Part shown: piece by piece, positions 3,383 to 64,000 of the stretch
Layout of the letters: every line of letters starts with the position of its first letter
Numbering within the stretch: position 1 is the first letter of the stretch
Source of the DNA: Flavisolibacter longurius
GTDB lineage: Bacteria; Bacteroidota; Bacteroidia; Chitinophagales; Chitinophagaceae
Assembly (NCBI GenBank): GCA_013327885.1
Contig: JABUMY010000015.1
Coordinates: 93,506 to 157,505, forward strand
Direction: 5' to 3'
Length of the DNA stretch: 64,000 bases
Translations under genes and position numbers: made by a program
The notes under the pieces: generated by a model
Seen by the model: only the letters and a program-made list of their open reading frames with translations
What the model was told of the DNA's origin: nothing
Databases searched by the model: none

Positions 3383-3568
3383 TTACTTTAGGGCCGTCAG
3401 TCTTTCCGCTTTGGGCACATCTGTACCGGCCATTGTTTCGGTGTTGTGCAGGCTGTTGTAGATAGTGGTACAAACAAACAAGGCCAGCACGACAGAAATA
3501 AAATAAATCATTACCATAAAAAGGAAAGGGTGCAGGGCACCAAACGTAGAGTAAGATTTGCGGTTCAT
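3383..3568 (-). CDS. Small single-pass membrane protein, unknown
   Basis: A 61-residue predicted protein with one hydrophobic segment (about residues 15-38, FLFMVMIYFISVVLALFVCT) and a polar C-terminal tail. I do not recognise a family. It lies alone between prs (minus) and radC (plus, divergent). Support comes from the clean transmembrane pattern and ATG start; coding status is not certain. Confidence 0.5.
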   Translation of the reverse strand: MNRKSYSTFGALHPFLFMVMIYFISVVLALFVCTTIYNSLHNTETMAGTDVPKAERLTALK

Positions 3569-3632
3569 AAGCTTCGGTTTAGGTATTCAAAGGATTGTTG
3601 ACAAAGCCAAAAATAAACACTAAACTTGGGTG

Positions 3633-4325: not shown

Positions 4326-4514
4326 TGAATGGTGAATGGTGAGTTTGGGTCGTTTACATTTGGCTATTTGCGTTTTAACTACGGCAGCGTAAGAACAGCG
4401 TTGCATGATCAGAATGCGAATCGTATTGATCTATCATCATAGCAACCAAACTACCCAGTTGCAATAACTGCCTTTTGCAAAATTTCATCCACATTTTTGG
4501 CGCTGAAGGCGCCC

Positions 4515-4641
4515 CGTGTTTATAGAAAGTTTATCAACCCAATTGAATTAGCTCTGAAGGAGCTTCGTGTTACCTGACCCAGAAACACGAGGCACCTTCG
4601 GAGCCCAATTGTTTTTCTTTAGAAGATTTACTATAAACACG
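4515..4641. repeat. Nested inverted-repeat element
   Basis: In the 404-bp gap between radC and the next gene, an outer 11-bp perfect inverted repeat (CGTGTTTATAG at 4515-4525, complement at 4631-4641) encloses a second imperfect one (GAAGGAGCTTCGTGTT at about 4556-4571 with AACACGAGGCACCTTC at 4584-4599). GGCGCC- and CTCCGGAG-type hairpins flank it. It looks like a short repeat element able to form a cruciform, not a gene. The rest of the gap holds nothing I can name. Confidence 0.7.
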
Positions 4642-4729
4642 TGGCTCCTCCGGAGCCGGTTAGTTTTTCACGTTGCAGCCTTTAGAGTGCGGCCTATTTC
4701 AGCCCGACCCACAAAGGCCAGGAGTTGGC

Positions 4730-5416
4730 TTATTGCAGCACTGTAGTCAGGTAACGAAAAAGCGACTGCAGGTCTTCTTCTTTTTTAAAATCAATCTTGT
4801 TTGCATCGAGGTAGCTGCTGATCTCTTTTTCTTTTTTTCCAAATACCCGGGCAAGGTTCTTTTTGTTCACCGGGTAAAACTCGTTGCGGTCGCCAATGAA
4901 ATAATAGGTCTTCCGCACCAGCGTAAGATCTTCTTTTATCACCAGCTTTACCGTAGTGCGGCTGTTGGCATAGGAGCCAAAGGTATTGGCACCTGAGTAG
5001 GTGGGCTGATTGAAAGCGCCGAGTTTTTTGGAATCAGACAGTTCAACAAACTGCCTGCGGGTGAGTTTTTTAGTTTGAAAAGAAGCCAGTTGTTCGTGAT
5101 AGCCTTCGGCGTAATAGAAGGTATCTTTCCCAATGGCTACATGCTTAATATCCACCTCGTCGGCCAGCGAAAGTGTGTCGCCGGAAGAAGTTATAAAATC
5201 CATTTCGCCTTGCAGGTAATTATAATTTAGTTTGGCTGCGGAAGTTCTGCCATCCCGAAACGATACAATACCAGCCATAAAGCTTGGGTATCTGTAAACG
5301 TCGGTAAACGACATTACCTCCGAGATTTCCTGGTTGGCTTTTATATAGTAAACTTTTTCCTGTGCGCTTAGCGACAGGGACAAACCCATGAAAATAAGTG
5401 CAATGAGCGATTTCAT
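4730..5416 (-). CDS. Secreted protein of unknown function
   Basis: About 228 residues beginning with a signal peptide (MKSLIALIFMGLSLSLSAQ, cleavage after SAQ), hence probably periplasmic or outer-membrane associated. The mature part is rich in Lys, Tyr and Asp with no domain I recognise; the RYPSFMAGIVSFRDGRTS and YYFIGDRNEFYPVNKKN segments look like beta strands of a small adhesin-like fold. I chose the internal ATG at 5414-5416 because it starts the signal peptide; a longer reading frame from 5482 would overlap the DUF3467 gene and precede the signal with a proline/arginine-rich stretch. Confidence 0.75.
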   Translation of the reverse strand: MKSLIALIFMGLSLSLSAQEKVYYIKANQEISEVMSFTDVYRYPSFMAGIVSFRDGRTSAAKLNYNYLQGEMDFITSSGDTLSLADEVDIKHVAIGKDTFYYAEGYHEQLASFQTKKLTRRQFVELSDSKKLGAFNQPTYSGANTFGSYANSRTTVKLVIKEDLTLVRKTYYFIGDRNEFYPVNKKNLARVFGKKEKEISSYLDANKIDFKKEEDLQSLFRYLTTVLQ

Positions 5417-5456: not shown

Positions 5457-5765
5457 TCAGGCCTGTGCGGTGGGGCCGCCAAAACTCAGCGGGATCTGGA
5501 TTTCTTCCAGGTCTTTGATAGCACCATTGGCAGCTTCATAACGCTGCACATTTTCGGTTAGCGCCTTCATAAAACGCTTGGCATGCTGGGGCGTGAAAAT
5601 GATGCGGCTTTTTACTTTACTCTTAGGGGTGCCCGGCATTACATTGACGAAGTCAATCACAAATTCGGCGTGAGAATGGGTGATGATGGCCAGGTTGGCA
5701 TAGGTTCCCTCAGCTACATCTTCCGTGATCTCTATATTTATCTGGCTTTGTGGTTGTTGTTCCAT
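5457..5765 (-). CDS. DUF3467 protein
   Basis: A 102-residue cytoplasmic protein of the DUF3467 family, widespread in Bacteroidota and of unknown function. The signature segments INIEITEDVAEGTYANLAII, HSHAEFVIDFVNVMPGTPK and SRIIFTPQHAKRFMKAL are all present at the usual full length. It stands 41 bp upstream of the secreted protein on the same strand, so the two may be cotranscribed. Confidence 0.9.
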   Translation of the reverse strand: MEQQPQSQINIEITEDVAEGTYANLAIITHSHAEFVIDFVNVMPGTPKSKVKSRIIFTPQHAKRFMKALTENVQRYEAANGAIKDLEEIQIPLSFGGPTAQA

Positions 5766-5865: not shown

Positions 5866-6804
5866 TTATCGGGATTTATTGTATTTGATAACCATCTCGT
5901 ATTCTCTGACAGCACCGGTTGGATTCCAGTGAAAAGCCAGGTAAAACGTTTTGGTGGCCGGATCATAGCGGTTCACTTTTCCTGGCCAGTTTTTAAGGCT
6001 TGGGTTACCGCCGGCTGTCATGGTTACCAGGTTGGTGGCAGGATCTACCGTTGCTCTCAGGTTGTCGATACCGGCAACACCAGAAGTCCCACCCGCCCAA
6101 CGCAGGTTTCCAATCAGAACAGTAGTGGCGCCCACAGTAGACAATGTCAGATCAGGGTTGCCTGTTACGCTGCCGCTCAGGGCATCGCCGGCTGCTTCGC
6201 CAGGTGAGTTGTAACGTGTTACAGTACCCGATTGAATGGAGTAAACGCCATCATAGGGGTTTTTCACACCTACATTGTACAAAACATTCTTCATAGCGCC
6301 ACTGATCTGGCCAGTAGAGCCAACTTCGGTGATGCTGTAACCCAGGGCATATTGTTTGGACAGATCGAGTTTGCTTTTGTCCAGGTTCATGCTAAACGTT
6401 TTTACTGTTTCGCCGGGTTGAAATGTGATCGTACCAGGATCGCCACTCAAGGTATACGCTTCTGCCGGTAGTTCAACAAAGCTGCTGCCTGCGTGTGCTG
6501 TATTGTAAGCCGTAATTAAACCATTGTTCTTCGTAACCTTAACCGTTAAGGGCATATTCAACTGGCTTTGGTCCTTCGGGCTCCTGGTGATCGTCATCAG
6601 CTCAAAGGTTTCATTGGCCGGTGCTACATCGCGGAAAACACCAACGATCGCATCACCTCCATTGACAATATTTACAATCTGACCGCGATTGGCATCGCCG
6701 GAATCTTTTGGAAAGATTTCTTTATCTCGTACGCATCCAGACAGTAAGGCTGATGCCATCATTACTGCTGAAGCAACAGAAAACATTTTATTAAGTCGTA
6801 GCAT
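5866..6804 (-). CDS. DUF1735 (BT_3987-type) surface lipoprotein
   Basis: Predicted outer-membrane lipoprotein of about 312 residues. The signal ends in a lipobox (ASALLSGC). The middle (about residues 40-145) matches the DUF1735/BT_3987 N-terminal domain, with YNTAHAGSSFVELPAEAYTL and ITFQPGETVKTFSMNL. The C-terminal half (from NPYDGVYSIQSGTVTRY) is beta-rich and may be a ligand-binding domain. Start at 6804 gives the natural signal peptide. It is third in the operon, 28 bp after the SusD-like gene. By analogy with such loci it may be an accessory surface glycan- or peptide-binding protein; the ligand is unknown. Confidence 0.85.
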   Translation of the reverse strand: MLRLNKMFSVASAVMMASALLSGCVRDKEIFPKDSGDANRGQIVNIVNGGDAIVGVFRDVAPANETFELMTITRSPKDQSQLNMPLTVKVTKNNGLITAYNTAHAGSSFVELPAEAYTLSGDPGTITFQPGETVKTFSMNLDKSKLDLSKQYALGYSITEVGSTGQISGAMKNVLYNVGVKNPYDGVYSIQSGTVTRYNSPGEAAGDALSGSVTGNPDLTLSTVGATTVLIGNLRWAGGTSGVAGIDNLRATVDPATNLVTMTAGGNPSLKNWPGKVNRYDPATKTFYLAFHWNPTGAVREYEMVIKYNKSR

Positions 6805-6832
6805 AGTTTCTTTTTTTACAGTTCGTTTTGAA

Positions 6833-8287
6833 TTATTTATCCCACCAAATTCTGCCATATGGCGAATTATCGATATTGCCTACGCTATACCGTTTGGCTG
6901 CTTCTTTTGCTGCATTTGAATTCAGGTTGAAGTCATTTGAACCATAGGGGAAACGTCGTGGAATCCCAGCCGTTCCGGTATTAGCAGCAGGCGTAAGTGT
7001 TGGGAATCCTGTTCTGCGATAAACATTCCATCCTTCCAGCCCATTGGGGAACCATGACACCCACTCTTCTTTGGCAATTGTCTCCAGGCTCGTAGGCGGA
7101 AATGACGCAATGTAAGAACCAAAAGTTCCTGCATTGTAAACACCCCACTGCTGCCAGCTACGCTGTACGCCATTGCTATAGGCAGTGGCCACATTTTCAG
7201 TAGTAAGGGTGCGGAAGGCGGCTTCGGCACGGGCTAACCACATATGAGCAGCGGTAATAATTGGCAAGGCAGAGCTGGAACTATTCCAGGCAGAGCCAAT
7301 AACCCTCGCCCAGTTAGGTGTAGAGTTGTTAAAGGCTGTTGCCTGGTCGCGGGTAAGACCATAGGGGAAACCAACATTGGTTGTTGCCAGGGAAGTGATA
7401 CGTGGGTCGTTCGAGCCGTTAAGCTGGTTTACAAACGTTTGGCTAACTGCATAGTCTTTACGCTGTGTTACATTATAATAGTTGTAGAACACATTCGGAA
7501 AGTTTCCACCGGGGTAAACGATGGCTGCATTGTCGGCATTTTCTTCGATTACGCCAGCCGTAACAGCAGCAGAAAACTCAGTGGCCGCAGAGCCCTGGTT
7601 AGCCTTTACCATGTTGAGTGCAAGCAGTGCCCGCAAAGAGTTAGCGTACTTTATCCAGCGGCTCATGTTGCCACCATAAAGCAAATCTCCCTGCACGCCA
7701 CCAGCACTTACATTGATTTGGGCAGCGGCTTCTTTCAGTTCTGTGATAAGAGCCGGGTAAATGGTTTCCTGTTTGTCATAAACAACCTCGCCGGTTTCTC
7801 CTTTCAAAGCCTGTGTGTAGGGAACATCACCTACCATATCCGTTAAAAACTTGAAATAATGCACTTTCAGAATACGGGCAATCGCGATCTGGTTGGCATT
7901 GTTTCCGTAAGCGGCTGCTTTGGAAGCAGTGGCCGCGTCTGAGTTGTAGTTGATGATCGTTTGCAGATCGTACAGGGGCCCGGAGTAATAGGTATCCCAG
8001 TTAAAGGTTGGTGTGGCGTACCGCGAAGTTTCGGTGTACTGTGTTTCGGAGAAATACTGTACATATAAACCGGCAACGGTATTGGCACCGCCCTGATCCC
8101 ATACGATGTTGTTACCAAAGTTGGCCAGCACATTGGTCAGCAGGGCCGACATGGGCGGCTCTGTTACCCGGCTTGGATCGGAGTTAAGGTCTCCAAAGCC
8201 ATCTATTTTACTGCACGATGGTGCCATGGTTATCCCGGCAACAACCGCAAGTCCGTAAAAAATATTTTTGATTCTGATATTCTTCAT
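6833..8287 (-). CDS. SusD/RagB-like nutrient-binding lipoprotein
   Basis: Surface lipoprotein that caps a SusC-type TonB-dependent transporter and binds its ligand. It has 484 residues with a lipoprotein signal (GITMAPSC), then the N-terminal DGFGDLNSDPSRVTEPP stretch typical of the SusD_2 subgroup. Helical TPR-like repeats (LKVHYFKFLTDMVGDVPYTQ, YANSLRALLALNMVK) follow, and the C-terminus contains AAHMWLARAEAAFR and EWVSWFPNGLEGWNVYRRTG. It sits 9 bp after the SusC gene. No glycoside hydrolase or peptidase is adjacent, so the substrate is not indicated. Confidence 0.95.
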   Translation of the reverse strand: MKNIRIKNIFYGLAVVAGITMAPSCSKIDGFGDLNSDPSRVTEPPMSALLTNVLANFGNNIVWDQGGANTVAGLYVQYFSETQYTETSRYATPTFNWDTYYSGPLYDLQTIINYNSDAATASKAAAYGNNANQIAIARILKVHYFKFLTDMVGDVPYTQALKGETGEVVYDKQETIYPALITELKEAAAQINVSAGGVQGDLLYGGNMSRWIKYANSLRALLALNMVKANQGSAATEFSAAVTAGVIEENADNAAIVYPGGNFPNVFYNYYNVTQRKDYAVSQTFVNQLNGSNDPRITSLATTNVGFPYGLTRDQATAFNNSTPNWARVIGSAWNSSSSALPIITAAHMWLARAEAAFRTLTTENVATAYSNGVQRSWQQWGVYNAGTFGSYIASFPPTSLETIAKEEWVSWFPNGLEGWNVYRRTGFPTLTPAANTGTAGIPRRFPYGSNDFNLNSNAAKEAAKRYSVGNIDNSPYGRIWWDK

Positions 8288-8296
8288 GATGTTCGA

Positions 8297-11200
8297 TTAA
8301 AAGTTGAATTTGAAATTGATTCCAAGGCTTCTGGTGCCAGGCATGTTTCCATCTTCACCCTGCAGGCCAGAGATCTCAGAAGGATCGAAGCTTTCTGTTT
8401 CGCGGTAGAGCAGCAAGGGGTTACGGGCAACCAGCGAAATAGTAGCACCTTTCAGCACATTGCCTACTCTTCCCAGCTTGGTTACGGGTACACGGTAACC
8501 CAGGCTTACTTCTCTCAGTTTCACAAATGACAAACCGTGAACAAAAGGCTCAGCGATCTGGGAATTGTAGAACTGGTGATAATATTCCTGCGCATCAACA
8601 TACATATCAACAGGTGTTTTACCATCTGCAGCGGCAACACCTACAACATGCACACCACCGCCATCAGACACGGCATCTCGTACGTTCATGCCTTTGTCGT
8701 TCGAAGCGGCAGTTGCCTCCAACAAGCCTGAGTAGTGACCCCACATTTCAGACAAGGAGAAGAATTTACCACCGAATTGGTAATCAATGTTGAAATTGAA
8801 GGTAAAGCCTTTGTAGAAGAAGGTATTCACCAAACCACCGGTCATTTTTGGAACAACAGAACCATAGTGCTTGTCAGCATCCGCTACAAACATACCGCTG
8901 GGGCTCAACAGGGGCAAACCATCTTCATTGCGCTTGATACCACCGCCAATCAATTGTCCCCAATCCTGGCCCAGTTCATGGAAGGCACGGGCAAAGCGGG
9001 TACCAAAAGAACCACCGGCTAACAGGAGCCTGTTCTGACCCGGAAGCAGTTCAACGATTGGGTTTTTGATCAGGTAGCCAAAAGTCTTGTTTACTGTCCA
9101 CTCAAAATCCCTGCTTGTCATCACTTTGGCATCCGCCACAATCTCAATCCCTTTTCTGCGGACTTCCGTTGCATTCATCAATACAGATGTATAGCCGCTG
9201 TATGCAGATGTAGAAACGGAGAGCGGAGGATTTTTGGACGTTTCATCGTAGTACGTAAAGTTCAAACCAAAGCGGTTTCTGGCAAATTTAAAATCAAACC
9301 CAGCTTCGTAGGTAGTGATCAACGCACCGGTTACACCAGGTGTGATACCTGCGCCGGGAACCGTTGTCAGGAAGTTGCCATTCCATTGGTTCTGACCGAT
9401 GGTATAAGCAAAGTTGTTCTGGTATACAGTTAACGACAAAGGCTTTTTACCCCAGCTCGCAAACAATTTACCATAGCTCAACCAAGGCAGGGCGTTCTTC
9501 GTCAGGTCGCTAAAGAAGAAACTGGCACCAACCGAAGGAGAAAGCAGGCTGTTGTCACCGGCTGGCAAAGTAGAATACCAGTCGTTACGCAAAGCAAAGT
9601 TCACAGCGAACATGCGGTTCCACTCAATATCACCAAATCCGAAAACAGAGCGAACCTCAGTACCCTGCCGGCGATTGGTGATGGTTGGGTTGGCTTTTGA
9701 GTTGGAGATAGTGTACAGTCCCGGAACGTTCAAACCCTGAACGGTATTAGACTCCGCATCATTGTATCGTGTCTGCAACACGTTACCACCCACGTTGAAG
9801 TTTACATTCAGCTTATTGTTCAGGAACATGCTGGTATAAGAAGCCAGACCCTCATAGTTCATTTCGTTAGAACGGGTAAGACCTGTAGAGTACGTAGCCA
9901 GTTCGCCGGTTTGTGAAGCACTCTGCTCAATTTCCGATGGGATGATATTCTCATAGGTTGTGTTGAGTGAGTTCTTACGAACCGTACCTCTCAGCTTGAA
10001 GTTCTTGTTGATGTTATAGGTCAAGGAAACATCACCAAAAAGCCGGTCGCGTACTTGCTTGTAGTTGATCTGCTCAAAATAGGTATAGAAGTTATACCAG
10101 TAGTTGCCTTTGTACAAATCGGTAGATCCACCGGGGTTGGCTGCCGTGTTCCAGCTTGCATACGTACCAATGGGGGTACGAAGCCTGCTGTGTTCACGCA
10201 TTTTGTCAATGTCCAGGTTACGGTGGAACCACTGGTTAAAACCACCCGCTGATTGGTTAGAGTAACCATCATCAAAGGTTCCTACGATCTGGTAGTTAAC
10301 AAAATTCACAGTAGCTGCAAGCGTCAGGCGAGAGCTCAGGTCCAGTGAAGCCGTTGTGAAAAGAGTATGCTTGTTTGCACGGGTGTTGGGCAACATGCCT
10401 TTGATACCATTATTGGTATACGAAACCCGTGTGTTAAAGCCTTGTCCTGTTTTAGAAAAAGAGACGTTGGTAACGTTGGTAACACCGGTATTCCAGAAAT
10501 CACGCATGTTATCGGGCTGTCCTACCAGCGGAACAGATTTTCCAAAATCAGCCGATCCGGGAATCCATGCATACCAGGGAAGGTATTGCTGTCCCACCAT
10601 TCTTGGTCCCCAGGAAGCATCATCGGTCATGTCATGGTAGTAACCACCACTCAAGGCCTGCCACTCTTGCGGCATGCCGGGAGCCCAGGTAAACTGCCTT
10701 AATTCCGGTGCAGAACCACCAGCATATAAATTTTGATATTTAGGCAGGATGTAAACCTTATCGAAGGTGATACCCTGGTTTACCTCAATACCGGTTGTAT
10801 TTCTTTCGCCTCTTTTACGGGTAGTGATCATTACGGCACCACCACTGGCTCTTTCACCCAACAGAGCGGTTGCGTTGGCACCTTTCAGTACCGTAACGCT
10901 TTCAATATCATCGGGGTTGAGGTCAAACGAGTTTACGGGAGTTCCGTCCACTACGTACAGGGCTCCCACATCACCGCCAATGGCAAGACCACCGCGCAAA
11001 CGCAGAGAACCTTGTTCACTCAGCCGGATGGGCGACTGGCCACGGAACTGCGCACCGGCTACTTTACCAGCCAAAGCACTGTTTACATTGGTTTGTGGAA
11101 TAATGGCAAGCTGCTCACGTTCAACAGTTTGCGCACTATAAGGTGTAATACGTTGCGAACGCTTCACACCAAATGCGGTGGTTACAACAACCTCCTGCAT

Positions 11201-11488
11201 TTGTGCATCCACTACGGGAAGCGTAACGCTAACAGTGTTACCAGATACGGTAACGGTTTGTGGTTGGTGACCTGTGGCGGTCACCTGCAAACGGGCATTC
11301 TCAGCCACCTTCAGTGTAAAAACACCGTTGGCATCGGCAGTTGCCGCATTTGTTTTTCCAACTTCATTTACGGTAGCAAAAGGAACAGGATTTCCCCGTT
11401 CATCACGGACGGTACCGGTAACGGTACGTTGTGCAAACACCAACATGCTGCATGCAAGCAGCAGTAGCAGGGCTACAATTTTTCTCAT
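8297..11488 (-). CDS. SusC/RagA TonB-linked outer-membrane transporter
   Basis: TonB-dependent outer-membrane channel of about 1063 residues. In order: signal peptide (MRKIVALLLLLACSMLVFA), a carboxypeptidase-regulatory-like domain (about 20-100, TGTVRDERGNPVPFATV), the plug (QEVVVTTAFGVKRSQ, LRLRGGLAIGGDVGALYVVD, VLKGANATALLGERASGG), then a long 22-strand-type barrel ending in the terminal-Phe sequence INFKFNF. I chose ATG 11486-11488 because it starts the signal peptide. First gene of the operon with the SusD-like and DUF1735 lipoproteins. The 176-bp upstream gap should hold the promoter; I see no sigma/anti-sigma pair nearby. Confidence 0.96.
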   Translation of the reverse strand: MRKIVALLLLLACSMLVFAQRTVTGTVRDERGNPVPFATVNEVGKTNAATADANGVFTLKVAENARLQVTATGHQPQTVTVSGNTVSVTLPVVDAQMQEVVVTTAFGVKRSQRITPYSAQTVEREQLAIIPQTNVNSALAGKVAGAQFRGQSPIRLSEQGSLRLRGGLAIGGDVGALYVVDGTPVNSFDLNPDDIESVTVLKGANATALLGERASGGAVMITTRKRGERNTTGIEVNQGITFDKVYILPKYQNLYAGGSAPELRQFTWAPGMPQEWQALSGGYYHDMTDDASWGPRMVGQQYLPWYAWIPGSADFGKSVPLVGQPDNMRDFWNTGVTNVTNVSFSKTGQGFNTRVSYTNNGIKGMLPNTRANKHTLFTTASLDLSSRLTLAATVNFVNYQIVGTFDDGYSNQSAGGFNQWFHRNLDIDKMREHSRLRTPIGTYASWNTAANPGGSTDLYKGNYWYNFYTYFEQINYKQVRDRLFGDVSLTYNINKNFKLRGTVRKNSLNTTYENIIPSEIEQSASQTGELATYSTGLTRSNEMNYEGLASYTSMFLNNKLNVNFNVGGNVLQTRYNDAESNTVQGLNVPGLYTISNSKANPTITNRRQGTEVRSVFGFGDIEWNRMFAVNFALRNDWYSTLPAGDNSLLSPSVGASFFFSDLTKNALPWLSYGKLFASWGKKPLSLTVYQNNFAYTIGQNQWNGNFLTTVPGAGITPGVTGALITTYEAGFDFKFARNRFGLNFTYYDETSKNPPLSVSTSAYSGYTSVLMNATEVRRKGIEIVADAKVMTSRDFEWTVNKTFGYLIKNPIVELLPGQNRLLLAGGSFGTRFARAFHELGQDWGQLIGGGIKRNEDGLPLLSPSGMFVADADKHYGSVVPKMTGGLVNTFFYKGFTFNFNIDYQFGGKFFSLSEMWGHYSGLLEATAASNDKGMNVRDAVSDGGGVHVVGVAAADGKTPVDMYVDAQEYYHQFYNSQIAEPFVHGLSFVKLREVSLGYRVPVTKLGRVGNVLKGATISLVARNPLLLYRETESFDPSEISGLQGEDGNMPGTRSLGINFKFNF

Positions 11489-55192: not shown

Positions 55193-55616
55193 CGCATTAA
55201 GATAAAGGGTGTTTGACTTTTCTGCAAGCGCACAGCCACTCCTCAGAGTCCATCAACTTCTGTAGTGAGAGTGGTTTTCTTTAGCTATTCCTTTCCGCTA
55301 AAATGCTGAATCGTTTGATGGCGTTGTTATAAACTCTTTATCATTCCGGCTCGGACCGGGAGACAAAAAAAACAACCTGTAACCTTCCATCCAGGTACGC
55401 TACGCTATTCCACAAAACGGGAAATAAAAAGTTTTTTCTATTCAAATCCCACTAACAATCAATTAACTAACAGCATTGTGCACATGGCAGGCTTTTCCTG
55501 TTAGTTAGCGGTTGAAAAATAGTGAGTAAACGCCCTACCCCTTGACCGGCAAGGCGTTGCAGCCACCTGCCCTTTTCGATGCTCATCCGTGGCACAGAAT
55601 TGCTCCCGGTGGAGAT
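55193..55616. other. Gap upstream of ligD
   Basis: About 420 bp without a credible gene. Frames crossing it have no conserved segments. It could hold the ligD promoter and possibly the lost phosphoesterase part of ligD, but I see no remnant of it. Confidence 0.4.
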
Positions 55617-57728
55617 ATGCCAATAAGAAAACGCAGCAAAACCACTCCCCAGGAACCGCCGTCTTCTTCAAAGCAAAACAGGGTCCAGCGGCACCGGTTG
55701 CAGAAAGATTCAGCATCACCAAATGCTGGTTCAGATGCCATCACCATTGACCTGAACCGGGGGAAAGATTACGCCTGGATCCTGGAGCAAATCAAACGCG
55801 AGTTCCCACACAAAAAAAAGACAGGGATGCCCAGGCGATTAAAGCCAATGCTCGCCTCCGCCACCGCAGAACCCTTTAATGATGCAGCCTGGCAGTTTGA
55901 GATCAAGTGGGATGGGTACCGTGCGCTGGCCTACATGGAGAACAGCAAGGTGGATCTCCGCTCCCGCAACAACCTTTCGTTTTGCCACAAGTTCCCGGGG
56001 CTGGCAGAAGAGCTCCGCCGCTGGCCTGTCAATGCTGTTATCGACGGTGAGATCGTTATTCTGTCGGCAGAAGGAAAAGCTGATTTTGGCGCCTTGCAGG
56101 CCTGGCAGGAAGCACCGCAGGGTGAGCTTCTCTTCTTTGCCTTTGACCTGCTTTGGATTGCGGGCATTGACCTGCGCAAAGAACCACTCACTGTTCGCAG
56201 GGCAGTCCTGCGCAGGATCATTCCTGAAAGCGGTGCCATTCGCTTTAGTGACAGCATTGAAACCTACGGCACTGATTTTTTCAGGGCCGCCAAAGAAAAC
56301 GGCCTTGAAGGCATTATTGCCAAACGAATGGACGCGCCGTACGAGGACTCAAAACGCTCCCACAACTGGTATAAGATCAAAGCCGAAAAACGCCAGGAAG
56401 CCGTGATCTGCGGCTATGCAAAAAAAAAGGACACCGACCGGCTTTTCTCTTCCCTCCTGCTGGGTATTCCAACAGCAAATGGCTTTACCTATAGCGGCCT
56501 GGTGGGTTCGGGGTTCTCCACCAAACTGCAAGAAGACCTGCTCCGCAAAATGGCGCCTTTGCAAACAAAAGTCTGCCCCTTTGCTCGTGTGCCGAAGATA
56601 CCGGCTGCCGTGAAGTGGGTGCGGCCGTCGCTGCTCTGCGAACTAAAGTTTACAGACGTAACAAAAGACGGGCTGCTGCGGCATCCGGTTTTCCTTGGCT
56701 TACGCCCCGATAAAACCCTTGCGCAGTATAACGCCGATGAAAACTCAGTTCCAGTTCCAATTCAAATTCTATCCAACCCCACTGATGCCGCAGCGACAGA
56801 AAAGCTGATTACCGGTAAAGAAGCCTCCCTTCAAGTGGAGGTGGAAGGCAGGGCCCTGCAACTGACCAACCTTGGCAAACTGTACTGGCCAAAGCGCCGC
56901 ATCACCAAGGGTGACCTGCTTAATTATTACCACCACGTAGCTCCCTATATGCTTCCCTACATGCTGGGCAGGCCTCAGTCCCTGAACCGCTTTCCCAACG
57001 GCATCCACGGCAAGAGCTTTTACCAAAAGAACATGAAAGGAAAAGTGGAGCCATGGCTCTCCACGTTTGAACGCAGCAGCGGGGATGGCGAAGGAAAAGA
57101 CTTTCTGGTTTGCACCGGCGAGGCTTCGCTGCTTTACATGGCCAATCTTGGCTGCATCGAGATGAACCCCTGGCACTCCCGGGTAGAGACACCGCACTAT
57201 CCCGACTGGTGCGTGATTGACCTGGATCCCGGTGCGATCCTTTTTGATAAAGTCATTGAGACGGCCCTTGTGATCAGGTCCCTGCTGCAAAGCCTGGGCA
57301 TCCCCTCCTACCCAAAAACCTCCGGTTCTACAGGCCTGCACCTTTACATACCCCTGGGTGCAAAATATGGCTATGAACAGTCCCGGCAACTGGCGGAGTT
57401 GCTCGTTACCCTTGTGCACAGCGAGCTGCCCAAAACCACCAGCCTGGAACGAAGCCCGCGAAAGCGAAAAGATAAGATCTACCTGGACTTTTTGCAGAAC
57501 CGGCCGATCCAAACCATCTGCGCACCCTATTCGGTTCGACCCCGTCCCGATGCCACGGTATCAGCACCCCTGCACTGGGAAGAGGTAAAAAAAGGGCTAC
57601 GCATAAAGCAGTTTACCATGACTACGATGGGGGGCCGCCTAAAAAGCGAAGGCGATTTGTTTGGTGGTGTATTGGGCAGCGGCATCGAACTAAACGATGT
57701 GCTGAAGAAACTGGCTGCGCTGGTTTAG
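55617..57728 (+). CDS. ligD: DNA ligase D, LIG-POL form
   Basis: ATP-dependent ligase-polymerase for non-homologous end joining. About 703 residues from ATG 55617. After a basic, Ser/Lys-rich leader (about 1-70) comes the ligase domain with the nucleotide-binding lysine in FEIKWDGYRAL (about 97), VIDGEIVIL and KAEKRQEAVICGY. It continues into the polymerase/primase domain (LGKLYWPKRRITKGDLLNYY, DWCVIDLDPG, KTSGSTGLHLYIPL). The N-terminal 3'-phosphoesterase domain usual in Bacteroidota LigD is absent. Ku follows 139 bp downstream. Confidence 0.93.
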   Translation: MPIRKRSKTTPQEPPSSSKQNRVQRHRLQKDSASPNAGSDAITIDLNRGKDYAWILEQIKREFPHKKKTGMPRRLKPMLASATAEPFNDAAWQFEIKWDGYRALAYMENSKVDLRSRNNLSFCHKFPGLAEELRRWPVNAVIDGEIVILSAEGKADFGALQAWQEAPQGELLFFAFDLLWIAGIDLRKEPLTVRRAVLRRIIPESGAIRFSDSIETYGTDFFRAAKENGLEGIIAKRMDAPYEDSKRSHNWYKIKAEKRQEAVICGYAKKKDTDRLFSSLLLGIPTANGFTYSGLVGSGFSTKLQEDLLRKMAPLQTKVCPFARVPKIPAAVKWVRPSLLCELKFTDVTKDGLLRHPVFLGLRPDKTLAQYNADENSVPVPIQILSNPTDAAATEKLITGKEASLQVEVEGRALQLTNLGKLYWPKRRITKGDLLNYYHHVAPYMLPYMLGRPQSLNRFPNGIHGKSFYQKNMKGKVEPWLSTFERSSGDGEGKDFLVCTGEASLLYMANLGCIEMNPWHSRVETPHYPDWCVIDLDPGAILFDKVIETALVIRSLLQSLGIPSYPKTSGSTGLHLYIPLGAKYGYEQSRQLAELLVTLVHSELPKTTSLERSPRKRKDKIYLDFLQNRPIQTICAPYSVRPRPDATVSAPLHWEEVKKGLRIKQFTMTTMGGRLKSEGDLFGGVLGSGIELNDVLKKLAALV

Positions 57729-57867
57729 ATGTGCGCAAACATGTGTAAAACTGGTGTGTATATCAGGGGTAAAAACCAGCAATGGGGAACAGGGATTGGA
57801 TAATAGAATGCAGTAAACCTGAGAATGTTACAAGGAACCTATTAACAGTAAACCTAAAACGAAAACG

Positions 57868-58641
57868 ATGCGAGCACTTTGGAAAGGATCGATTGGATTT
57901 GGACTGGTGAATATACCGGTAGGCCTTTACACCGCAACGGAAGAAAGCAACCTAACCTTCGTCTCCCTGGATAAAACCTCCAAGGGCAGGATCCGCTATA
58001 AAAAAGTAAGTGAAACCACGGGCAAAGAAGTCAAGGCTGGCGACATTGTAAAAGCCTATGAGTTGGGTGGCCACTTTGTTACTCTCTCTGAAGAAGACTT
58101 TGAAAAAGCCGTGCCCACCAAAAAAGACCACATCGAGATCGTGCAGTTTGTCGATGAAAAACAGATTGATGCCCTTTATTACGAAAAGCCCTACTATCTC
58201 GCACCGGAAAAAGGCGGTGACCGGGCTTATGTCTTGCTCCGGGAAGCCCTGAAAAAAGAAAAAAAGGGGGCCCTGGGCCTGTTTGTTTTTCACAACCGCG
58301 AATGGGTTTGTTTGCTGAAACCCTCTGAAGAAGCCATTGTCCTGCACCGCCTGCGTTTTGCAGAAGAGATCCGGGGTGTGGACGGCCTGCGAATGCCATC
58401 GCTAAGTGTGAAGCCTGAAGAACTCAAGATGGCAACCTCCCTGATCGCACAACTCACCAAGCCTTTCAAACCGGAGCAGTTCAAAGATGAATACTCTGCA
58501 AAGCTGCTTAAACTGATCGAGGCAAAAGCCAAAGGAAAAACAAAGGCCTTTAAACCAATGAAGGTGGTACATACGACACAGACCGAGGACCTGATGGCCA
58601 AACTCAAAGCGTCGCTAAAGCCAGCAAAAAAGGCCTCCTGA
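57868..58641 (+). CDS. ku: Ku protein
   Basis: Homodimeric DNA-end-binding protein that recruits LigD. The 257 residues match bacterial Ku: MRALWKGSIGFGLVNIPVGL at the N-terminus, YYEKPYYLAPEKGGDRAYVL in the core, and a Lys-rich C-terminal tail (KAKGKTKAFKPMKVV, SLKPAKKAS). Codirectional with ligD with a 139-bp gap, forming a two-gene repair module. Confidence 0.97.
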   Translation: MRALWKGSIGFGLVNIPVGLYTATEESNLTFVSLDKTSKGRIRYKKVSETTGKEVKAGDIVKAYELGGHFVTLSEEDFEKAVPTKKDHIEIVQFVDEKQIDALYYEKPYYLAPEKGGDRAYVLLREALKKEKKGALGLFVFHNREWVCLLKPSEEAIVLHRLRFAEEIRGVDGLRMPSLSVKPEELKMATSLIAQLTKPFKPEQFKDEYSAKLLKLIEAKAKGKTKAFKPMKVVHTTQTEDLMAKLKASLKPAKKAS

Positions 58642-59480: not shown

Positions 59481-59720
59481 GTGATCAGTACCCTCGTGAA
59501 CTTCCCGGGCATGCGACAGGTGAACACCAGAGGGATTCACTTAGCCAACAAATGCCTGCTGATGGCAGCCGTGGGTTACAACCTCAAACGGCTGCTCAAA
59601 TGGACGAGAAATGAACCCGAAAACACCGAAAAAAGGCCTTCAAAACTCGCTTTTAGGCTGTGGCAATTCCTGATGCCGCAAGCTACAAAAAGCAGGTCAG
59701 TGGTGGTTGATAGCGGATAA
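59481..59720 (+). pseudogene. C-terminal transposase fragment (DDE type)
   Basis: The frame contains ISTLVNFPGMRQVNTRGIHL then ANKCLLMAAVGYNLKRLLKW, the conserved end of IS1182/IS5-like DDE transposases. The catalytic part is missing and no partner fragment is nearby. It lies just left of the first attC-like half-site and probably destroyed the distal end of the cassette array. Confidence 0.75.
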
Positions 59721-59786: not shown

Positions 59787-59793
59787 GTTAGCC
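59787..59793 (-). other. attC-like half-site (array end)
   Basis: GTTAGCC preceded by ACCGCT lies 8 bp past the stop of the minus-strand gene 59802-60173, the position of an attC R'' box. The matching TAAC box expected about 133 bp further left is absent; that stretch is the transposase fragment. It looks like the truncated distal end of the cassette array. Confidence 0.5.
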
Positions 59794-59801
59794 GAATCGC
59801 G

Positions 59802-60173
59802 TTACGTAGCTTTTCTTCTAAATCCCAGAACAACACAGACTATTCCAACGCTCATCAATACTCCCATTGCAGCTAGTTCACCTGTTACACTTTCGGCTGG
59901 ATACAAGACGCTATCGACACCATAGTGATACTTCATCAAAATGGTATCGCCAACTTTGTATTCTTTGCAAATGTTTGTGTATGCCTTTTTGAAAAATCGT
60001 TTTTTCTGGAGCTGAAGCTGCATCGAGCTGTTCTTTATTGAACAGTCATTTGGCAACGCTAAAATTCTCATCGGCACGATTTCCCCTTCTTTCTCCACTT
60101 TGGATAAGTCTGTCTTTCCTTTAAACACTAATAAGCTAATCAGTATGACAATAGCGCCTAAGAATTTCGTCAT
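59802..60173 (-). CDS. Cassette gene: two-TM protein, unknown
   Basis: A 123-residue protein with a hydrophobic segment at each end (KFLGAIVILISLLVF and LAAMGVLMSVGIVCVVLGF) and a basic loop with KEYKVGDTILMKYHYGVDSV between them. I recognise no family. It is bounded by attC-like boxes on both sides (59787 and 60196) and so is the most distal cassette of the array. Confidence 0.65.
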   Translation of the reverse strand: MTKFLGAIVILISLLVFKGKTDLSKVEKEGEIVPMRILALPNDCSIKNSSMQLQLQKKRFFKKAYTNICKEYKVGDTILMKYHYGVDSVLYPAESVTGELAAMGVLMSVGIVCVVLGFRRKAT

Positions 60174-60195
60174 GCAACTAAGGGCTGATTTTTTC

Positions 60196-60219
60196 GGCTA
60201 ACGGAGAACAGATTCCAGA
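60196..60219 (-). other. attC-like half-site left of IS110 element
   Basis: GGCTAAC (60196-60202), a 6-nt spacer (GGAGAA) and CAGATTCC. Its partner half is at 61775-61796. Box, spacer length and arm start match the intact sites in this array, notably the 63511 site with its 6-nt GGAACG spacer. Confidence 0.6.
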
Positions 60220-60221
60220 AG

Positions 60222-60306
60222 CCAAGGCTTTAAGTGAACTTCAGCTTCACTTCTGTTCTATTGTTCAATAAAGATATTGTGTTTGGCATTTGTTTGTCAG
60301 CCTTGG
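60222..60306 (+). ncRNA. Candidate bridge RNA region of the IS110 element
   Basis: CCAAGGCT (60222-60229) pairs with AGCCTTGG (60299-60306), enclosing a second hairpin AAGTGAA-N7-TTCACTT (60232-60252). A structured leader immediately upstream of the transposase is where IS110-group elements encode their bridge RNA. Only the pairing is observed; RNA production is inferred. The downstream hairpin region is an alternative location. Confidence 0.4.
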
Positions 60307-60353
60307 TTTTTGAAAGCATCCATGTAAAAGAGTAGCTTACTGTAACTAAAATC

Positions 60354-60361
60354 AAGGAGGT
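60354..60361 (+). promoter_or_regulatory. Strong Shine-Dalgarno before IS110 transposase
   Basis: AAGGAGGT, a full anti-16S match, 5 nt before the ATG at 60367. Almost no other gene in this window has such a site, in keeping with the weak use of Shine-Dalgarno in Bacteroidota. It supports the start and a foreign or promiscuous origin for the element. Confidence 0.75.
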
Positions 60362-60366
60362 AAGTT

Positions 60367-61407
60367 ATGAAACATCTCTTTATCGGACTTGACGTTCGCA
60401 AAAAATCCTGGTCAGTGACGATTCAGGAAGGAAAAGTGGTACTGAAGCGCTTCTCGATGGAGGCAGATGCTGACGCTTTGCTGCACTATGTTCACAAACA
60501 CTATCCCGCCTACGAGGTGGAATGTTGCTATGAGAGCTGCTGCCTTGGCTACCAAATCTACCGCGACTTATCAGCTGAGGGCTGGCAGGTACTGGTGGTC
60601 AATCCAGGCGACATTCCTCGCATCCATAAGCAAAAAAGCAGCAAGACCGATAAAATAGACAGCCGTTACCTCTGTCAACAACTCGCGGCAGGGCAACTCA
60701 AAGGCATCTATGTGCCAAATGAACAGCAGGAACAGTTTCGCAGTCTGTTTCGCCGGCGCAACGATTTGGTGAAGAACCTCCGTAGGATCAAAAGCCACAT
60801 CAAAGGCATGCTGCTGTACTACGGTGTTACGATTCCTGAACACTATGACAATCCCAATTGGAGCAAAGCCTTTCTTCAGTGGCTCACAAAGGTGAAATGG
60901 ACCTATACATCTGCCGGAGAGGCGCTGAAAAGCCGCCTTCACGAATATGCCTTTTTACATAAAGAATACCTACACCTCTCGAATGAACTCCGCAGTTATG
61001 CAAGAAAGTACTACAAAAAGCACTACTATCTTCTCAGGAGTGTTCCGGGCGTGGGGCCATTCATCGCCATTGGCACACTGGCGGAAGTGGGTGATCTGCG
61101 CCGCTTCAAAGGCATAGACCGGCTAAGTAGCTACATTGGATTAGTGCCCTCCCTTTACAGCAGTGGAACAAACTCTTTCACCAAAGGCATCACTGCCCGA
61201 AGCAAGCACCTTCTAAGAAGCTACCTCATTGAAGGCGCCTGGATCGCTGCCAAGAAGGATCCGGAACTGATGCAATACTATCAGGCGCGCAAAGGCGCAG
61301 ATCATAAAAAGCTGATCATCAAAATGGCTTCCAAGACCCTGAACCGGATGTACAGTGTAATTAAAAGAGGTGAACCGTTCCAGGTGAAAGTGCCTGTGCT
61401 TGCATAA
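60367..61407 (+). CDS. IS110-family transposase
   Basis: A 346-residue RNA-guided-type recombinase of the IS110 family. The N-terminal RuvC-like DEDD domain starts FIGLDVRKKSWSV and includes NPGDIPRIHKQKSSKTDKID. The C-terminal Tnp domain has LRSVPGVGPFIAIGTLAEVG, RLSSYIGLVPSLYSSG (with the candidate catalytic serine) and KHLLRSYLIEGAW. Length and both domains are intact, so the element may still be active. The Shine-Dalgarno at 60354 fixes the start. Confidence 0.95.
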   Translation: MKHLFIGLDVRKKSWSVTIQEGKVVLKRFSMEADADALLHYVHKHYPAYEVECCYESCCLGYQIYRDLSAEGWQVLVVNPGDIPRIHKQKSSKTDKIDSRYLCQQLAAGQLKGIYVPNEQQEQFRSLFRRRNDLVKNLRRIKSHIKGMLLYYGVTIPEHYDNPNWSKAFLQWLTKVKWTYTSAGEALKSRLHEYAFLHKEYLHLSNELRSYARKYYKKHYYLLRSVPGVGPFIAIGTLAEVGDLRRFKGIDRLSSYIGLVPSLYSSGTNSFTKGITARSKHLLRSYLIEGAWIAAKKDPELMQYYQARKGADHKKLIIKMASKTLNRMYSVIKRGEPFQVKVPVLA

Positions 61408-61470
61408 ACAATAAATCATTTATTACCTGAGATGTTCTCAAACAAAATGCATGAAATGTTCAACGATAGT

Positions 61471-61702
61471 AGTGGCGGCTGTAAAACATCAGATGCAGTC
61501 CACTCCCGGGGAGCTGCTTTTAGAAAGCATACAGCGCCACTTCCTTTTTATTTCAAGGATGCTTGCAGCGGCACCAGCGGCCGGCTGCTGATAGGATGCT
61601 GAGAAAAAGGTAATAAAGGAAAAAAGAGGGGCCACCACGTCAGCAGATGTGTTTTGCAACTGCAAGAACACCTTTGTGCGTCCATCAGAAAACAACATCT
61701 GC
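61471..61702 (+). ncRNA. Hairpin-rich 3' region of the IS110 element
   Basis: Three potential hairpins in the 380 bp past the transposase stop: AGTGGCGGCTGT (61471-61482) with ACAGCGCCACTT (61531-61542); GCAGCGGC (61565-61572) with GCCGGCTGC (61580-61588), one bulge; GCAGATGTGTTTT (61643-61655) with AAAACAACATCTGC (61689-61702), one bulge. No open frame explains them. IS1111-group elements encode their guide RNA on this side, so this is the second candidate guide-RNA region. Confidence 0.4.
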
Positions 61703-61774
61703 CGCCGCGGTGTACAAAAAATTAGTACGACGTTGAAAATGAAGGTAACTTTAATAATCACCCAGCTATCTCTT

Positions 61775-61796
61775 TACATAGGATCTGATGTTAGCG
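61775..61796 (-). other. attC-like half-site right of IS110 element
   Basis: GTTAGCG (61790-61796) preceded by AT and GGATCTG, the partner of the half at 60196. The arm start CAGATCC (minus strand) matches CAGATTCC on the other side. The gene stop at 61830 lies 33 bp away, as expected of an R'' box. Confidence 0.6.
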
Positions 61797-61829
61797 GCGT
61801 CGTGCTGAAAAATCCGCTGGCATCAGAGA

Positions 61830-62216
61830 TTAGTTTCTACTGCCGGAATAAACCGCTAAGCCAAAAAAGGTAACAATACTGATTGTTCCGTAGAAAACAA
61901 GAATATTGTAAATTCTCTTCTGGGCTTCTTCTGTTCTGCTTGACCACTTATTCTCCATCACATCAACAGAATGATTGTCTTTGTAGATGTACCGTATGTA
62001 AGTTGTAATCTGAAAGACAATAAACAAAACAATAGCCAGCAATTTATTCAAGTGGGCCTTTTGCTGAACTATCCCTTGAAAGGCCATAACGACTGTCAGG
62101 ACGTTCATTGCTTGGAGACCGCCAACAATCCCTGCTGATGTAGATGCCGCTCCTTTCTCGTTGTAATCCGAGTAAAACCGATAAATAGAATAGTATAAAA
62201 AATCAAACAATGTCAT
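61830..62216 (-). CDS. Cassette gene: multi-TM membrane protein, unknown
   Basis: A 128-residue protein with three hydrophobic segments (about 27-48, 58-75, 104-123) after a YYSIYRFYSDYNEKG head. I know no function. Bounded by the IS-interrupted attC-like site on its 3' side and the intact one at 62247-62379 on its 5' side, so it is one cassette. Confidence 0.7.
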   Translation of the reverse strand: MTLFDFLYYSIYRFYSDYNEKGAASTSAGIVGGLQAMNVLTVVMAFQGIVQQKAHLNKLLAIVLFIVFQITTYIRYIYKDNHSVDVMENKWSSRTEEAQKRIYNILVFYGTISIVTFFGLAVYSGSRN

Positions 62217-62246
62217 GGTACAGATAAATCAGAGAGTTTTAGTCGC

Positions 62247-62379
62247 CGCTAACGTTAAAGGTGTTTCTGCCAGTGGTGGCATTTCCTGTTCTGTTGCTGG
62301 CTTAAAGATATTTAGTTCAGTAGAATTTCAAAGTTGATTTACTTCCTGTCGCCACCATTGCAGAAACATTTTGTTAGCG
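62247..62379 (-). other. attC-like recombination site A (133 bp)
   Basis: CGCTAAC (62247-62253) and GTTAGCG (62373-62379) are perfect complements. Inside, TGTTTCTGCCAGTGGTGGC (62262-62280) pairs with the complement of GCCACCATTGCAGAAACA (62351-62368), one extra base in the left arm. Box-to-arm spacers are 8 nt left and 4 nt right. Total 133 bp. The stop codon of the next cassette gene (62374-62376) lies in the right box. Confidence 0.8.
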
Positions 62380-62889
62380 GCTGTTGAAGGCAAAGTAATG
62401 CCAGCCTTTCATTCTGGCGGTGAACCACTGCTTTTCCACCGAAAAGGGAAGCTGAAGTTGAAACCTTTGAGCACCCACGCCAAGGTATTGTCTTTTGCCG
62501 TTTTTTTCTCGAACAAAAAACACTTTACCCATGTCAAGAACATAGGAATACTCACCCAATGGAGGAATGATTTTCTTGGGCTTAGGGAAAGTGTCTACTA
62601 AAACTGTCGGGTGGCACTCACTTTTGCCTACATCCACATAACAGGTACTATCAACATATTGCTCAATCAATTTCACACCTGTCGTATTCGGGCAAAAAAT
62701 CATTCCCTGATTGTCATCTATTGCAACTTCTTTATTTATAAGTGATTTAATAAAGACAACCAGATAGAGATTTTCATTGTCGCCGTCTTTTTTTGTGAAG
62801 CTGGAAAGCTTTATTGAAACCGTATCCATTTGCGCCTTCAATGAGCCCAAAAGACCAATAAATAGCATTGTTAAGAGTAGTCGTATCAT
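62374..62889 (-). CDS. Cassette gene: exported protein, unknown
   Basis: A 171-residue protein with a signal peptide (MIRLLLTMLFIGLLGSLKAQ) and a beta-rich mature part (VSIKLSSFTKKDGDNENLYL, IIPPLGEYSYVLDMGKVFFV). No family recognised. Its stop is formed by the attC-like box GTTAGCG, a common feature of cassette genes. Confidence 0.7.
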   Translation of the reverse strand: MIRLLLTMLFIGLLGSLKAQMDTVSIKLSSFTKKDGDNENLYLVVFIKSLINKEVAIDDNQGMIFCPNTTGVKLIEQYVDSTCYVDVGKSECHPTVLVDTFPKPKKIIPPLGEYSYVLDMGKVFFVREKNGKRQYLGVGAQRFQLQLPFSVEKQWFTARMKGWHYFAFNSR

Positions 62890-62899
62890 AGGCAGTCGC

Positions 62900-63032
62900 C
62901 GCTAACGGAAAGAGGCTTGGCGAAGAAGCGGTATTCATTGGTTTGTCGCTTCAGCCATGCATCTCAGTTGAATTGTGATTTATAATTCAAATGTATTGCT
63001 TCGGCCGCTTTTTTGCCAAGACTTTGTTAGGC
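62900..63032 (-). other. attC-like recombination site B (133 bp)
   Basis: CGCTAAC (62900-62906) and GTTAGGC (63026-63032). Inner arms AGGCTTGGCGAAGAAGCGG (62913-62931) and the complement of CCGCTTTTTTGCCAAGACT (63005-63023) agree at 16 of 19 positions. Total 133 bp. The stop of the 63027-63473 gene lies in the right box. Confidence 0.8.
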
Positions 63033-63473
63033 GTTGGCATTAGTATCGTCAGCCTTTAATTTTTCGTAGAGCCTCTTTAATTCTTTGTTTTCAGTCCATG
63101 CTCCACTTTCTGTCATAGCAATAATGACATAGTTCATAAATTCACTAAGAGACTTTGTTGCTCCTTTTACCGTTGCATCTTTCCAGGGGTGCTTATCTTT
63201 TGGCATTCTGTATTCGATATTGTATGCGTCCGCATTTGCAATGATGCTTACATACCAATCAGCATCGTTGGTCGCTGTTGTAAAGAGTAACAAATGAGCA
63301 TGAGAGGTTCCGCCAAAAATTGTCGTTTCTACAAATGTCTCTTTGATTTTATCGATGACACGAAGCATTGCCTTGCCTAAATCTGAAGAAATCATATTAT
63401 CAGAAGAATCCCATTCCTCATAGAACTCTTCAAGTGTCTGTCGCTTTTGCTCTTTGCAACGGATTAAAGGCAT
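63027..63473 (-). CDS. Cassette gene: cytoplasmic protein, unknown
   Basis: A 148-residue soluble protein (DLGKAMLRVIDKIKETFVET, TSHAHLLLFTTATNDADWYV, AYNIEYRMPKDKHPWKDATV). No family recognised. A full cassette between attC-like sites B and C, with its stop codon inside site B. Confidence 0.7.
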   Translation of the reverse strand: MPLIRCKEQKRQTLEEFYEEWDSSDNMISSDLGKAMLRVIDKIKETFVETTIFGGTSHAHLLLFTTATNDADWYVSIIANADAYNIEYRMPKDKHPWKDATVKGATKSLSEFMNYVIIAMTESGAWTENKELKRLYEKLKADDTNANA

Positions 63474-63510
63474 GTTCTCTGTCGAATTTAAGGAATGTCT
63501 GAAAGCTAAC

Positions 63511-63643
63511 GCCTAACGGAACGGAGCTTTATGCAGCAGGGATATTCCTGTTCTTATGATCCAGCCCTTGTGCTGCCGCAAAATAGATATTCTTTGCTGA
63601 AAACTTGTACTTCCGCCCCTGTTGCAAAAAGCTCATGTTAACG
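63511..63643 (-). other. attC-like recombination site C (133 bp)
   Basis: GCCTAAC (63511-63517) and GTTAACG (63637-63643). Inner arms GAGCTTTATGCAGCAGGG (63524-63541) and the complement of CCCTGTTGCAAAAAGCTC (63617-63634) agree at 16 of 18 positions. Spacers are 6 nt left and 2 nt right. Total 133 bp, identical to sites A and B. GCCTAAC fits the classical RYYYAAC box exactly. Confidence 0.82.
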
Positions 63644-63675
63644 GCGTCGTCGTCCAGACACCTCATTCAAAGTCG

Positions 63676-63945
63676 CTAATCATTGAAGAAGTGTACGAAA
63701 ACAAAGATGTAGAATACGGCGATGGCAGAAAATGAAATGTAATACTGTTCTGACGTGTTCAGTTTTGTCTTTTTCAGGTAAAGCAAATTCAAAAGTATTG
63801 TTATCAGCAGAACCCCAGCTGCTCTTATTATAGGCTTTATCGTACTTCCAGTTCCAAAATACAAGTCAATAGAGACCAGTACACCATAAAGTATAATGGC
63901 CGAAATGAGAGTAAAAGCAAAATGAATGAAGCCTCTAACAATCAT
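63676..63945 (-). CDS. Cassette gene: three-TM membrane protein, unknown
   Basis: An 89-residue hydrophobic protein with segments at about 8-27, 38-56 and 69-87. No family recognised. It lies between site C and the partial site at the window end, in the same orientation as the other cassette genes. Confidence 0.65.
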   Translation of the reverse strand: MIVRGFIHFAFTLISAIILYGVLVSIDLYFGTGSTIKPIIRAAGVLLITILLNLLYLKKTKLNTSEQYYISFSAIAVFYIFVFVHFFND

Positions 63946-63985
63946 ACCGATGTTTAGTTTGTTGACTTAGCAATTAGGATGGTTG

Positions 63986-64000
63986 CAGTCGCCGTTAACG
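63986..64000 (-). other. attC-like half-site at window end
   Basis: CAGTCGCCGTTAACG reaches the window edge; its CGTTAAC box (63993-63999) and the AGTCGCCG flank match the left ends of sites A and B. The array therefore continues beyond 64000. Confidence 0.6.

Follow-up and report, generated by a model that had tools for sequence, protein, structure and literature searches.

In the integron integrase IntI, the I2 (or patch) helix reads the extrahelical bases of its target site. Passages of PMC9668308 call this patch unique to IntI and necessary, and parts of PMC4792948 and PMC7790495 tie it to folded single strands. Canonical attC stems are described in sections of PMC2727003 as carrying extrahelical bases together with a central spacer that is left unpaired, with lengths of 57 to 142 nt. 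Whether the patch or the attC sites arose first is presented as a chicken-and-egg problem in the text of PMC4792948. Here we analyze a stretch of 64,000 nucleotides from the genome of Flavisolibacter longurius (the window), the last part of which, from 59787 onwards, very probably belongs to a chromosomal integron-type array served by a linked tyrosine recombinase that lacks this patch and is predicted to cut and join cassettes at hairpin-forming attC-like sites.

Extent of the cassette array

The sequence-only reading of the window had proposed an integron-type cassette array, composed of five small genes on one strand and three palindromic 133-bp sites. The five genes were all recovered on the minus strand, and the three sites were found where proposed, with 7-base boxes and the arms described; the genes at 62374-62889 and 63027-63473 do end within boxes. 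A site model built here from 19 sites was used to score the sites, and two elements were added to the original description: a fourth site split by an insertion element (60193-60333 and from 61790) and the R'' box of a fifth, truncated site (59787-59794). The resulting array features are:

59787..60201, minus strand: distal cassette 1, its attC truncated beyond 59787
59802..60173, minus strand: cassette 1 gene, 123 aa
60193..60333, minus strand: attC-like site, R' half, split by the insertion element (site model, 74.0 bits)
61790..61798, minus strand: R'' box (GCCGCTAAC) of the interrupted cassette 2 site
61830..62216, minus strand: cassette 2 gene, 128 aa
62244..62382, minus strand: attC-like site, boxes 62247-62379 (site model, 95.2 bits)
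62374..62889, minus strand: cassette 3 gene, 171 aa
62897..63035, minus strand: attC-like site, boxes 62900-63032 (site model, 111.6 bits)
63027..63473, minus strand: cassette 4 gene, 148 aa
63508..63646, minus strand: attC-like site, boxes 63511-63643 (site model, 107.6 bits)
63676..63945, minus strand: cassette 5 gene, 89 aa
63874..64000, no strand: terminal overlap of contig C6, its last 127 bp being identical to the start of contig C23, into which the array continues

The R'' box at 59787-59794 (CGGCTAAC, minus strand) matches cassette 1's own start, TTAGCCG. A detector of boxes plus arms returned four overlapping matches in the 64-kb window, all at the three 133-bp sites, compared with none in any of 20 first-order Markov resamples of the window; 200 resamples of 59787-64000 gave 0.005 on average (maximum 1). 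No Rfam family was matched at gathering scores in the window, and Pfam matched none of its five cassette genes.

The window corresponds to positions 93506-157505 of contig C6 (157,505 bases), so that its final base is the end of the contig, and the R' box of a further attC-like site (63991-63999) lies inside the terminal overlap with C23. C23 in turn ends in the same 127 bp with which C25 begins, an exact overlap, and the terminal 127 bp of C25 recur in reverse complement at the end of C21. A whole-genome search confined each of the three overlaps to its two contigs. The path C21-C25-C23-window hence defines one same-strand array of 24 attC-like sites (1, 5, 14 and 4, respectively, in the site-model search), plus the truncated one at 59787. 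The array is headed in C21 by a tyrosine recombinase gene (9720-10883, 387 aa) and an attI-like junction, with 155 bp separating the gene from the first GTT boundary (11039), after which the same-strand cassettes follow. The earlier placement of an integrase and attI beyond 64000 is thus borne out; of what it suggested looking for there, a recombinase with the IntI patch and more sites, the recombinase and the sites were found, but the patch is absent. On this sequence evidence, the window very probably holds the distal end of a chromosomal integron-type cassette array.

Cassette ends and architecture of the attC-like sites

Because excision and insertion would take place at G^TT, the start of each cassette should mirror its own R'' box and not that of the preceding site. 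This own-end match was evaluated on 67 of the 79 genome site-model rows, leaving out the ten weakest (E above 3e-6), C33:71601 and C18:1-131; seven further rows, in which boxes were not found, were dropped. All six variable bases matched the cassette's own R'' box in 37 of 41 neighboring pairs. The mean was 5.63 of 6, against 3.59 for the preceding site's own boxes and a permutation mean of 3.09 (standard deviation 0.19), and the observed score was reached in none of 20,000 permutations. The four exceptions comprise the site split by the insertion element, two long gaps in C1 and one pair matching 5 of 6. Across 20 other named loci, 63 of 82 pairs matched fully and 71 in at least five bases, a score reached in 0 of 5000 permutations, also when shuffling was restricted to each locus. 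Cassette behavior is demonstrated by these matches.

Sites matching the model are also found as scattered units. An exact complement of the R'' box was present 360-1956 nt upstream in 14 of the 19 lone sites without an upstream neighbor in this genome, indicating that most scattered sites are cassettes too. The sequence-only reading had named scattering without cassette behavior as evidence that would speak against it; the scattering is observed, but the lone sites mostly behave as cassettes.

Comparisons between and within genomes provide additional evidence on cassette boundaries. In Agriterribacter humi, two identical copies of a 601-bp cassette lie in one array on a single contig, at 3964 and 6905; their flanks are unrelated and their edges fall exactly at GTT. 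In Paracnuella aquatica, the attI-adjacent cassette of one scaffold reappears at 93% identity as an inner cassette of another. In this genome, the first 127 bp of the attI-proximal cassette are preceded by attI in C21 and by another attC in C24, with the break exactly at GTT, and the end of its attC precedes a different cassette in C26, these three being comparisons of contig ends within 94-127 bp. Taken as sequence evidence, these cases indicate that cassettes have moved in the past as units bounded at G^TT.

The contents of the cassettes were also examined. In 39 of 40 cassettes, the longest open reading frame (ORF) lies on the cassette strand; the remaining cassette carries the insertion element. 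Among 42 cassette proteins, 17 Pfam families were identified, including NTF2-fold and WapI-type immunity proteins, a ParE toxin and, in two proteins, NADAR; one protein matched PF18287, "Integron Cassette Protein Hfx_Cass5" (2.3e-23). PADLOC returned a single candidate family, in two cassette proteins.

Genome-wide, the site model returned 79 matches at E up to 1 and 65 at E up to 1e-6, and matches were present in 16 of the 18 genus genomes analyzed, a count that includes this genome, as well as in 24 of 38 relatives. Folding of the three 133-bp sites as DNA, suggested in the sequence-only reading, gave z of -4.1 on the minus and -4.9 on the plus strand for the first, -2.2 and -3.8 for the second and only -1.4 and -2.0 for the third. 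Single-site folding is by itself unconvincing, whereas covariation across many sites is convincing. In an alignment of 103 sites from 25 chosen sources, a selection of the loci, changes on both sides were seen in 15 of 17 stem pairs, and 94.9% of 1727 cells were paired, compared with 37-43% when the partner was slid by one to three columns; both sides had changed in 584 of these cells.

The alignment also defined the architecture of the sites. The R'' and R' boxes end in AAC and start with GTT, as in canonical attC, and the 4-nt difference between spacers that had been noted in the window proved general, the R''-side spacer measuring 2 nt in 92 of 103 sites and the R'-side spacer 6 nt in 77. 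Stem arms are equal, without a one-sided extrahelical base, in 89 sites and contain one extra base in the other 14; two mismatch positions are conserved (A or G opposite C, and A opposite C), and the apical part spans 71-77 nt in 81 sites and 134-139 nt in 21. A core GTAAG instead of GTTAG was observed at C1:141-1088, C15:58699 and C44:397488 of this genome, and the cassette start of the C1 variant (GTAAGCAGC) still matches its own R'' box (GCTGCTTAC).

The linked recombinase and its distribution in the Bacteroidota

Three recombinases of this type were identified in the genome, with TIGR02249 scores of 179.6, 163.8 and 163.2 bits, below the cut-off of 265 bits. Those in C11 and C49 are 68% and 42% identical to that of C21, and each lies just upstream of a same-direction cassette start. 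The catalytic residues R243, K268, H332, R335, H358 and Y367 are invariant in 27 aligned recombinases. Alignment to the Vibrio integrase (2a3v) breaks at 2a3v residues 178-246, opposite 25 residues of the C21 recombinase, and the IntI patch of approximately 40 residues between the K motif and HxLRH is absent. The distance between these motifs was 63-68 residues in 75 of the 80 listed relatives in which both were found, and 107 in the four measurable of 20 canonical IntI. The AlphaFold model (mean predicted local distance difference test score of 84.1, with the last 16 residues poor) shows only a short loop at the patch position. Among solved structures, it is closest in fold to XerA, archaeal Xer, VchIntIA and XerH. 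Residues 1 to approximately 105 form an extra N-terminal part outside these matches; a second structural alignment covers model residues 107-377, so that this part barely enters into it.

Patch-less sequences cluster together in a 77-row tree (Shimodaira-Hasegawa-like approximate likelihood ratio, SH-aLRT, of 99) and in a 25-row tree (100/99), in which canonical IntI rows cluster apart (100/99). Both sides group against four Xer rows (99/95), with a weaker inner joint on the patch-less side (88/79). With the patch missing, the TIGR02249 cut-off failed and a clade of its own, the protein is not an IntI. Four recombinases of the same order (L152, L153, L154 and L156) fall outside the clade, and in the 25-row tree three of them sit closer to this clade than to IntI; those of L153 and L156 were measured and lack the patch. 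The public names of 120 relatives listed were XerD or integrase, and integron was used for none. Of 8000 scored candidates, 7480 passed E 1e-30, other recombinases included.

Canonical IntI is not foreign to the phylum. The TIGR02249 cut-off was passed in 84 of 296 phylum genomes, of which 83 lie outside the class of the window and one belongs to the same order, but in only one of 38 relatives (G004) and by no protein of this genome. A canonical integron with an undetected IntI was rejected on these grounds.

A scan of named genomes yielded at least 80 recombinase loci, and the following locus counts refer to those listed. In 80 loci, 140 site-model matches were identified, 129 of them downstream on the recombinase strand (in 37 loci), two downstream on the opposite strand (both also sense-strand matches), and two and seven upstream on the plus and minus strands, respectively. 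This downstream bias was observed despite the searched sequence amounting to 326 kb downstream and 599 kb upstream. In 26 of 34 loci, the start of the first cassette is found exactly in the interval from the recombinase to the first attC; in 22 of those it lies 104-309 nt past the recombinase match. In ten aligned C49-type loci, the sequence from the recombinase up to the junction is conserved between species, with the attI-like noncoding blocks GGATTGTCCTAACGACAATAC and TATATCATATATTTACGTGTT; by position and conservation, a putative attI is thus found beside the recombinase.

Classical integrons have a divergent layout, and this also occurs here. In Chryseobacterium lacus (L128), a member of a third subclade, three upstream minus-strand sites show own-end matches, in a divergent array beside the patch-less recombinase (2681-5196 and 6289-7116). 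Three other loci of this subclade (L102, L112 and L125) have one or two upstream minus matches each, and L126, L129 and L134 have no upstream matches that hold up.

Two further elements were observed at scattered cassettes of this genome. One, of approximately 107 bp, ends at cassette starts in C15, C33 and C50 (L143:~5000-5130, L140:~11249-11353 and L016:8-65). It is also present at L072:11209-11320, just downstream of a clade recombinase in Paracnuella aquatica, and these elements therefore resemble orphan attI sites. The other, with arms TTCTTGCTC and GGAGCAAGAA, precedes scattered cassettes at L147:~5522-5591, L145:~4580-4649, L144 near 8930, L148:3934-3999 and L141:9136-9212. Beyond the cassettes of C1, positions 7950-9889 hold what we take, by eye, to be an IS91-like transposase and its own short tyrosine recombinase.

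Mechanism, alternative explanations and comparison with known systems

The sequences themselves show the layout of recombinase, attI-like junction and same-strand cassettes, its recurrence in many Bacteroidota, the G^TT boundary, the own-end match and the covarying arms. In the mechanism we propose, cassettes would be excised as circles by exchange between R' and R'' and integrated at attI by attI x attC exchange, the recombinase moving them as folded single strands. Recognition of the folded strand is inferred because pairing is kept while the letters change. The two strands might be told apart by the 2:6 spacer asymmetry and the fixed mismatches, which would replace the extrahelical bases, and scattered single cassettes could arise where a cassette enters a secondary or orphan attI-like site. 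We regard as evenly balanced the broader proposal that the Bacteroidota hold a second, sister integron lineage, with hairpin attC recombination lacking both the I2/patch helix and extrahelical bases, which would be the patch-less state regarded in the literature as IntI's missing ancestor, alive and widespread.

Several observations weigh against the integron-type interpretation. No recombination was observed, the support being sequence evidence, and the contig joins are assembly overlaps, not reads. In the 20-locus set, 19 of 82 pairs matched imperfectly, 11 of them in fewer than five of six bases; nine of these 11 span more than 1.4 kb, possibly concealing a missed site. No downstream site was detected in 43 of the 80 listed loci, 29 of which have less than 2 kb of downstream sequence. 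Among the 42 with at least 2 kb, 28 have matches and 14 do not, the former becoming 26 of 28 when the third subclade and three short Flavobacteriales rows are left out. Both strands fold about equally and the third site folds weakly. The covariation alignment was fitted to the site model, and its count of further pair types was not above shuffles (443 of 500 as high). The window's own cassettes were not found in 17 other genomes of the genus, with only attC parts being shared.

The same recombinase might instead act on double-stranded sites, as Xer does, the hairpin being incidental. The recombinase is about as similar to XerA, XerC and XerD as to IntI, and the stems are mostly devoid of one-sided bulges, as expected of a double-strand mimic. 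The patch it lacks is, moreover, the part that passages of PMC4792948 and PMC7790495 tie to folded single strands. Yet the arm letters vary while pairing is kept, as in the 584 cells changed on both sides, which sequence-specific binding of double-stranded DNA would not need. The core of a Xer site comprises 6-8 nt, a length far exceeded by the apical part in both of its size classes, and we consider this explanation unlikely.

It is a good deal less probable that the cassettes were moved by a canonical IntI, lost or located elsewhere, with the patch-less recombinase as a bystander. Other classes of the phylum commonly carry canonical IntI, as detailed above, but it is nearly absent from the relatives. 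The arrays keep to a single side and strand of the patch-less recombinase, and the 127 bp to 0.3 kb between recombinase and first cassette are conserved between species. The site model, furthermore, had no match in 21 canonical IntI loci (77 kb, with at most ~1.5 kb of flank each). Interspersed palindromic repeats or miniature inverted-repeat transposable elements (MITEs) without cassette behavior can practically be discarded, since the sites do occur as singles or pairs (as in the one-contig genome G003, with 34 matches) but show own-end matches, uniform gene orientation, duplicate edges at GTT and recombinase-proximal arrays.

Other elements of the window adjoin the integron-type array or interrupt it. 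An ORF at 59481-59720 resembles, by eye, the end of a transposase and adjoins the truncated distal site, whose truncation it likely caused. The two genes at 55542-58641, ahead of the array in window coordinates, are presumably a LigD-type ligase and Ku, judged by eye. The element that splits the fourth site comprises:

60315..61782, plus strand: IS1111-type insertion element, ends approximate, with imperfect subterminal inverted repeats at 60322-60337 and 61764-61779
60367..61407, plus strand: IS110-family DEDD transposase, 346 aa (NF033542, 216.7 bits, cut-off 140)
61408..61763, plus strand: noncoding part downstream of the transposase

From the IS1111 layout given in parts of PMC11187229, a guide RNA would be expected within 61408-61763. 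A second copy, 77% identical, is located at C11:577815-578827 within another attC-like site, and both copies in this genome are inserted at the same place, between the R'' box and the arm. Members of IS1111 that target attC are known from the same source, and the element shares with its IS1111-attC group (ISKpn4, ISPst6) the IS110-family transposase, the subterminal inverted repeats and the downstream noncoding part. It differs in its target, a new attC type, in which two copies are seen here.

If the integron-type reading is correct, it would define a widespread kind of integron, new in its patch-less recombinase. No account of such integrons was found in the titles and abstract openings searched, a coverage outside which preprints and most subscription journals fall, and standard surveys likely overlook them, because they look for IntI with the patch. 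A large hidden pool of cassettes would be added, as 65 site-model matches reach E 1e-6 or better in this genome alone. With natural attC-like arrays and a patch-less recombinase serving them, the question of patch or attC origin would become directly testable, and the joint lack of the patch and of the bulges it reads would provide strand-choice rules to compare.

With sedentary chromosomal integrons, the system shares the cassette array, the G^TT boundary, the R''/R' boxes, palindromic sites of variable apical length and attI-like entry, as well as a content of small genes that are mostly unknown and include immunity and toxin-antitoxin types. It differs from them in an integrase without the patch, endowed with an extra N-terminal part of ~105 aa and pointing toward the cassettes, and in stems mostly free of one-sided extrahelical bases. 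Treponema integrons with reversed intI, as described in sections of PMC3607928, likewise transcribe the integrase toward attI, in the direction of the cassettes; the Treponema genes were published as intI, whereas here the IntI model fails and the patch is missing. The catalytic fold and its patch-less spacing are shared with XerA, XerC and XerD, from which this recombinase is set apart by its linkage to attI-like sites and cassette arrays and by its separate clade.

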